From positions 1 to 64,000 of the forward strand of contig CAISYI010000265.1 of NCBI GenBank assembly GCA_903889595.1: a DNA stretch of 64,000 nucleotides, given 5' to 3'. The stretch comes from an uncultured beta proteobacterium (GTDB lineage: Bacteria > Pseudomonadota > Gammaproteobacteria > Burkholderiales > Burkholderiaceae). Below, one piece after another: positions 41,015-42,331 of the stretch. A model generated the notes under the pieces. The model was not told the origin of the DNA. It ran no database searches and was given only the letters and a program-made list of their open reading frames with translations. Every line of letters begins with the position of its first letter. The stretch's first letter is position 1. The translations under genes were made by a program, and so were the position numbers.

Positions 41015-41863
41015 TTAAAAAAGAGTTTCTTTTTTCAAATTCCTTAAGATAAAGTCTGCTGTAACAACAGCAGCATCTTGAGTCATCTTCTCTTCAAATA
41101 TTAGGCTCACAATATCTTCAACATCATATTTCTGAAAATGATGGACTTCTCCATCGTTATTAGTTGGATTCCAATCATCATCAACGATCAAATCAAAAGT
41201 AAATATTCTTTCGTGATGGACTTCATTTGGCGGTAGTGGTCTTCTGATCTCGATTGAACCAATAGGATAAAGATTCTTTAATTGATTCGAAGTAACACCT
41301 GCCTCTTCCCAAAGCTCACGAATGACGGAAGATTGAATTGTTTCAAGTGCGCTAATCCCTCCAGCCGTCATGTTATCTAACAAACCAGGATCTACGGTTT
41401 TGCTATCGCTTCTTGTCGCTAGCCATAGGAGTCCATCCTCAGAGCAGCCGTTTACATGAACTGCATGGCTAATGAATCCGAAGCCTCTAAAAGCAGCACG
41501 TTCTAATTGAAAAGCTTCATGAGAGTCTTCTCTTAAGAATGAAAAATTTTCATTACGCCAATGAGAAAATACCTTCTTAGACCTTAAGAATTCAGCAAGA
41601 ATTTTCAGCTCTAAACTTAATTCTTGTGAGGATGCATTGGATAAAATAAGCGCATCTTTTGTCACTTGTATCAGGAAAAACTCATTCTGATCTTGGTCTA
41701 ATAATTCCTGAATGAGCATTAAGCATGATGGAGAAATGCTTCCTATTACCTGATTGTTATAGAAGACTGGTGCAAAATTTTGAGGAATTGAACGATAAGA
41801 TGTTTCAATGATTTCCATCAGTGCTGATTTAGTCGAATCAGAAATTACATAACTTAATTTCAT
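41015..41863 (-). CDS. NUDIX hydrolase with N-terminal DUF4743-like domain
   Basis: 'GFGFISHAVHVNGCSEDGLLWLATRSDSKTVDPGLLDNMTAGGISALETIQSSVIRELWEEAGV' Nudix box with GG...REL.EEAG. Confidence 0.85.
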   Translation of the reverse strand: MKLSYVISDSTKSALMEIIETSYRSIPQNFAPVFYNNQVIGSISPSCLMLIQELLDQDQNEFFLIQVTKDALILSNASSQELSLELKILAEFLRSKKVFSHWRNENFSFLREDSHEAFQLERAAFRGFGFISHAVHVNGCSEDGLLWLATRSDSKTVDPGLLDNMTAGGISALETIQSSVIRELWEEAGVTSNQLKNLYPIGSIEIRRPLPPNEVHHERIFTFDLIVDDDWNPTNNDGEVHHFQKYDVEDIVSLIFEEKMTQDAAVVTADFILRNLKKETLF

Positions 41864-41901: not shown

Positions 41902-42157
41902 TTTTCCATTACCACTTTAGGGGGAAAGTATGGTTCTTAAAATTGGGATTAGTCAGCGAATGCCCCACCAAAACTAATATTTTTTTCAACTTTTACATAT
42001 TATGGAAAATACTAGTGTGTAAGTTAGTGTTTTCCCTTACCACTTTAGGGGGAATGAATGGTGCTTAAAATTTGAGCAAGTCAGCCCTTGCCCCACCATG
42101 TCTAACTATTTTCACTATTTATTGCTACTTATCCACAATACTTGTGGATAAGTTATT
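41902..42157. repeat. Tandem direct repeat, two copies with exact 128-bp period
   Basis: Copy 1 41902-42029 and copy 2 42030-42157 align without gaps; shared blocks TTTTCC.TTACCACTTTAGGGGGAA, CTTAAAATT, AGTCAGC, TGCCCCACCA, AATACT.GTG..TAAGTTA. Confidence 0.85.
42127..42153. promoter_or_regulatory. Perfect palindrome made of two inverted DnaA-box consensus 9-mers
   Basis: ACTTATCCACAA-TAC-TTGTGGATAAGT; TTATCCACA (42129-42137) and TGTGGATAA (42143-42151). Confidence 0.65.
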
Positions 42158-42256
42158 CTTTAAAAAAACAAAAAAAAAGATTGACAATGAGACAGAATAT
42201 TTTTAATAAAATAAAACAGATGCTAATGCGTTTGTTCTCAATATTAATCTCAAATT

Positions 42257-42331
42257 TGGTCCCGCCGACAGGAATCGAACCTGTATCTTACGCTTAGGAG
42301 GCATACGTTCTATCCATTGAACTACGGCGAG
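42257..42331 (-). tRNA. tRNA-Arg (CCT), CCA encoded
   Basis: Reverse complement CTCGCCGTAGTTCAATGGATAGAACGTATGCCTCCTAAGCGTAAGATACAGGTTCGATTCCTGTCGGCGGGACCA. Confidence 0.93.

Follow-up and report, generated by a model that had tools for sequence, protein, structure and literature searches.

A conserved pair of facing DnaA boxes near the terminus of Polynucleobacter chromosomes is a candidate DARS-like element

The 64-kb stretch of DNA analysed here (the window) belongs to a 2.65-Mb assembly of the genus Polynucleobacter (86% complete), and the element under discussion lies in it between a tRNA-Arg gene and a gene that we take to be a member of the NUDIX hydrolase family (Table 1; the names of neighbouring genes were read off their translations). 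The core of the element is ACTTATCCACAATACTTGTGGATAAGT, whose two 12-nt arms are 100% complementary and are separated by 3 nt. A preliminary description of this DNA had reported two inverted, exact consensus DnaA boxes 5 nt apart within a perfect palindrome, an arrangement abbreviated here as 9-5-9, and this is confirmed in the sequence.

Table 1. Coordinates of the palindrome, its repeats and the neighbouring genes in the window.
Feature	Position	Strand	Remarks
NUDIX hydrolase-like gene	41015..41863	-	usual, not obligatory neighbour on other side of element (presumed family)
Repeat copy 1, tandem duplicate of flank confined to this lineage	41902..41984		single copy in relative L047
Decayed palindrome of copy 1, ATTATGGAAAATACTAGTGTGTAAGT	41999..42024		128 bp upstream of intact one
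Tandem repeat copy 2, with intact palindrome	42030..42112		78% identity between copies along 83 nt, at a spacing of 128
Conserved motif GGGCTGACTTGCTCAAATTTTAAGCACC, copy 2	42060..42087	-	genus form GA.CT.gctTGC.tAA...T..GCA
Perfect palindrome with 12-bp arms	42127..42153		extra pairs outside and inside the boxes mostly unconserved in relatives
DnaA box, box I-like	42129..42137	+	exact consensus TTATCCACA; conserved across the genus
Spacer ATACT, 5 nt	42138..42142		length invariant, sequence variable across the genus
DnaA box, box II-like, facing the first	42143..42151	-	exact TTATCCACA on minus strand; geometry of boxes I/II in E. coli DARS1/DARS2
tRNA-Arg (CCT)	42257..42331	-	usual neighbour on one side of element in the genus

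The two boxes are the only exact copies of TTATCCACA in the window, a number that is unremarkable by itself, given that 16 of 100 shuffled sequences match it. The genome as a whole contains 32 exact boxes (24 on the plus strand and 8 on the minus strand), and palindromes equivalent to this one are not abundant in it. An inverted pair at a spacing of 2–8 nt is expected by chance, according to our own estimate, about 5e-4 times per genome.

The pattern TTATCCACA-N(2-8)-TGTGGATAA was searched for in 186 Polynucleobacter genomes, with the reversed pattern as a control. The exact 9-5-9 palindrome is present in 155 of the 186, once per genome except in two, and the spacer measures exactly 5 nt in all the matches listed, even though 2–8 nt were permitted; the reversed pattern gave 0 matches in the same scan. 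Among the 31 genomes without an exact match, every one of good quality (18/18) keeps a form with one or two mismatches and the same spacer, and no second site with up to two mismatches was found in the 27 complete genomes. The spacer sequences are of 38 kinds among 87 loci. Conservation measured on this set is biased, because the pattern that retrieved 48 of its loci included a part of the flank; the unbiased set consists of 46 loci for which the palindrome was the whole search pattern. The palindrome is neither a product of chance nor peculiar to this genome, and the objection that it might not be conserved in related genomes, anticipated in the preliminary description, fails.

On the side opposite tRNA-Arg, the boxes are accompanied by a conserved flank of about 65 nt, with the consensus aT....aAAaGTttTcgTAAGTc...gATTTgTAtaG...GA.CT.gctTGC.tAA.t..T..GCA and a mean information of 1.32 bits, against 0.24–0.32 outside it (46 loci); the distance between the box and the motif TAAG is 17 nt in 44 of the 46. 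The lineage of the window has diverged in this flank and retains its last motif. The flank and the box pair were duplicated in tandem (128 bp) in this lineage, with loss of the boxes of copy 1, where a degenerate palindrome had been described and is indeed found. It had been left undecided whether copy 2 kept or gained its symmetric site; because the element is single in relative L047 and its palindrome there is intact, copy 2 kept the ancestral site while copy 1 decayed, and the idea of a gain is set aside. The A/T-rich tract described at 42158-42220 is present, but it is not a conserved part of the element, the tRNA gene starting about 5–20 nt from the palindrome in most relatives.

The perfect pairing of the arms over 12 bp in this genome could suggest that the site is a hairpin and nothing else, in RNA or in DNA, for example a terminator of the tRNA gene. 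Of the 46 relatives fetched by the palindrome alone, however, only 7% have complementary bases in the first pair beyond the boxes, which indicates that a protein site has been conserved and not a hairpin. Since complementarity stops at the edge of the boxes in these relatives, the 12-bp arms of the window are partly coincidental and the two 9-mers are the conserved part. Moreover, covariation of the arms is lacking, the stem is not followed by a T-run, and the site persists where the tRNA gene is absent, so that the stable hairpin with conserved pairing and a succeeding T-run that defines an intrinsic terminator is not what is found here. The earlier suggestion that the palindrome is simply a hairpin does not survive these comparisons, and we regard it as extremely improbable. 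A riboswitch was rejected on the same lack of covariation between the box arms. A search of the region against Rfam returned nothing above threshold but the tRNA, and the folding of the leader RNA (z = -2.15 on the minus strand and -1.38 on the plus strand) corresponds to no known family.

A different possibility is that the boxes form an operator through which DnaA controls a neighbouring gene, be it NUDIX, tRNA-Arg or parE. The NUDIX gene starts 120–265 nt from the element in most genomes, and in relative L209 the boxes stand directly before parE, both of which favour this possibility. Nevertheless, the element is intact in several genomes in which NUDIX lies about 2.9 kb away with other genes in between, and also in L042 and L045, where no gene start follows it; tRNA-Arg is missing beside intact copies in these two and in L050 and L053, and in genus g26 an FMN-reductase-like gene, unrelated to these, is found next to it. 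The element is INDEPENDENCE from genes, being conserved while its neighbours change, and because the flank and the site persist through these changes, it does not serve any single gene as a promoter. An operator is therefore unlikely, and the control of parE-parC that had been proposed is at odds with neighbours that differ between genomes. A NUDIX promoter was also considered and was rejected on account of the genomes that have the element without an adjacent NUDIX gene. The genes that separate the element from NUDIX in some lineages (L140, L161, L167, L176, L178 and L180) are one for a substrate-binding protein and one resembling acetolactate synthase.

The position of the site on the chromosome was calculated in complete genomes by taking dnaA as the origin (our own arithmetic). 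The site lies opposite dnaA, about half a chromosome away and thus far from oriC, at 0.41–0.55 of the chromosome in 26 of the 27 genomes and at 0.74 in the remaining one (G094). In the genome of the window, dnaA, already noted as absent from the window, is found on a different contig (G000:C178). The marks of an oriC, namely an adjoining dnaA at the GC-skew minimum and an unwinding element, are not seen at this site, since dnaA is on another contig or half a chromosome away and the A/T tract is not conserved; the prediction of a DnaA site other than the origin is in this way supported. A second origin was rejected, there being a weak GC-skew wobble at 927–967 kb of G004 but no unwinding element; in that one genome, the local GC skew dips just before the element (G004:C1:927001-967000) and is positive again at the element.

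In the same genome a dif candidate, ATTTGACATAATAATGATTATACGCAGA, coincides with the GC-skew maximum (G004:C1:1037961), at a distance of 70 kb from the site. Identity with dif was rejected, the candidate being separate. This proximity and the position shared by the complete genomes could be explained by a terminus-linked site, one that serves termination, segregation or fork control and makes use of a palindrome resembling DnaA boxes. We consider this very unlikely, because conserved gene order accounts for the position, the site of G094 departs from it, dif is elsewhere, and the three-box relatives described below occur at many chromosomal positions.

The function of DARS, the DnaA-reactivating sequences, has been worked out in E. 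coli. As read here, DARS1 is TTATCCACT-ATTCC-TGTGGATAA-CCA-TGTGTATTA and DARS2 is TTATTCACC-TTTTC-TGTGGATAG-AGT-TGTGAAGAA; in both, 5 nt separate box I from box II, which is turned towards it, and box III follows 3 nt further on. This agrees with the published account, in which box I is opposed to boxes II and III and the spacing is equal in the two loci (PMC5742627). According to the literature, DARS is characterised by boxes I and II lying head to head, an arrangement that its function requires, and box III is stimulatory (PMC10380432, PMC8682772). The window site has the opposing boxes at 5 nt and is intergenic and separate from oriC, as DARS is. A box III in the same orientation 3 nt beyond box II is not recognisable in the window, nor in 28 of 31 loci of the genus (up to two mismatches), and for this reason the site is called a DARS-like two-box variant and not a member of DARS. 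The site also lacks the mid-arm position of the E. coli loci, which is not strictly defining for DARS; when DARS2 is relocated to the terminus, it retains only part of its function (PMC5010248). Sites for IHF and Fis belong to DARS2 only, and for IHF the related elements offer a one-mismatch match, described below. The DnaA protein of the window's own genome keeps all the DNA-contact residues that were checked, as well as D269 and L290, which have been linked to DARS function (PMC5742627). One subclade of Polynucleobacter (L243-L245, L252-L254, L260 and L267) carries a further 9-5-9 site, TTATCCACAGAAAATGTT[GT]ATAA, whose flank is similar, so that each genome there has two DARS-like loci, the number known from E. 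coli.

Outside the genus, spacing was controlled by counting the spacers of exact pairs in 300 Burkholderiales genomes and the gaps to box III at the loci. The spacer is almost always 5 nt, 6 nt in three sites, and never 2–4 or 7–8 nt. Box III is found in the DARS orientation at a gap of 3 nt in 26/28 loci of g26 and 19/30 other loci, with other gaps near zero; it is scarce in Polynucleobacter (3/31 loci, with no enrichment of a third box at this gap) and in genus g19 (1/14). A search for the whole three-box pattern, with up to 3 mismatches and thus loose enough to take in both E. coli loci, recovered it in 245 of 300 Burkholderiales genomes (control 1) and in 311 of 369 genomes of the class (control ~6), usually in one to three copies per genome and, where the position of dnaA is known, mostly far from it. 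At 7 of 44 order-level loci, from a few genera, box III is followed after 17 nt by the motif TAAG, as box II is in Polynucleobacter, a coincidence that weakly suggests the loss of one 12-bp box-plus-gap unit in the latter. Six tandem matches to the three-box DARS core were observed within about 900 bp at G678:C11:513551-514394 and at G649:C12:22534-23398.

The same geometry turns up in other settings. In g26 and g19, the exact palindrome is found on contigs without dnaA (L106-L108, L113, L115; G435, G371, G443, G455), apparently belonging to a secondary chromosome or megaplasmid. In L089 and L090, an inverted 9-5-9 pair forms part of what seems to be a plasmid origin, presumably an IncP-type oriV, with what we take to be its TGACACTTGAGGGGC iteron nearby. 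These occurrences mean that the geometry has other uses, and its lack of exclusivity to DARS, the missing box III, the near-terminus position and the weakness of the IHF match are the points that count against a DARS reading.

With these points weighed, we consider it fairly likely that the palindrome forms the centre of an element which is non-coding, binds DnaA and acts in the manner of E. coli DARS. The best reading would be a two-box, DARS-like site without box III, located near the terminus and recharging ADP-DnaA; reactivation, one of the first guesses, is now the leading interpretation. Two molecules of ADP-DnaA would occupy the facing boxes, which are 5 bp from each other, so that their AAA+ domains meet head to head, and this arrangement would loosen the bound ADP, after which the freed DnaA could take up ATP and start the next round at oriC. 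Acting far from the origin, the site probably helps to set the timing of chromosome replication. The Polynucleobacter core of such an element would be the symmetric two-box form, usually single-copy and close to the terminus. A more specific proposal, for which we have only tentative confidence, is that DnaA recharging in Polynucleobacter depends on one minimal, symmetric, two-box DARS near the terminus that has lost box III. In that case the number of recharging sites would double as the terminus region is itself replicated, shortly ahead of the next cycle, the site would be the smallest natural DARS, and the 9-5-9 pair would be sufficient alone.

Exact, high-affinity boxes at a single conserved, non-coding locus could also belong to a datA-like site, which titrates DnaA or inactivates it and does not reactivate it. 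In related sequences an IHF-like match lies near the boxes: a site of this kind with one mismatch, which is a weak match, is present in 36 of 46 elements, compared with 11% of shuffled sequences. The datA locus, which drives ATP hydrolysis, has more boxes, together with a required IHF site (PMC5742627), whereas only two boxes are found here within 150 nt at up to one mismatch, apart from weak matches in copy 1. Two boxes are too few to titrate DnaA among the 32 exact boxes of the genome, the head-to-head box I/II arrangement is the reported hallmark of DARS (PMC10380432, PMC5742627), and the exact 5- and 3-nt spacings of DARS recur in relatives. For these reasons titration or inactivation is rather unlikely, and reactivation is preferred.

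According to one source, conservation of the DARS core is specific to those gamma-proteobacteria that are relatives of E. coli (PMC4245941), and similar sequences have been said to occur in many proteobacteria (PMC10380432); our literature search, which covered papers outside subscription, found none that relevantly joins DARS with Burkholderia or betaproteobacteria. A signature based on spacing, present in some 80–84% of the sampled genomes of the order and the class, makes the generality of DnaA reactivation testable, and Polynucleobacter, with its small genomes and usually one two-box site, provides a simple natural case.

Compared with known systems, the Polynucleobacter site resembles DARS1 and DARS2 in its facing boxes exactly 5 nt apart, its intergenic, single-copy location away from oriC and the conservation of D269 and L290 in DnaA. 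It differs from them in the lack of a recognisable box III, in having two perfect consensus boxes and hence a symmetric core, in its location near the terminus and not mid-arm, and in its flank, which runs 17 nt to TAAGT and then to a TGCTTAA...TTAAGCA motif. With datA it shares the nature of a non-coding DnaA-box locus that would modulate DnaA activity, but according to the literature the head-to-head 5-nt pair is not a hallmark of datA, with its additional boxes and its dependence on IHF. The IncP-type origin shares the inverted pair and is distinguished by its flanking iterons, which the Polynucleobacter site does not have. Finally, the three-box elements of Burkholderiales and the class share with it the 9-5-9 core and, in a few genera, the TAAG at 17 nt; they keep box III at 3 nt, whereas the copies of Polynucleobacter and g19 are without it.
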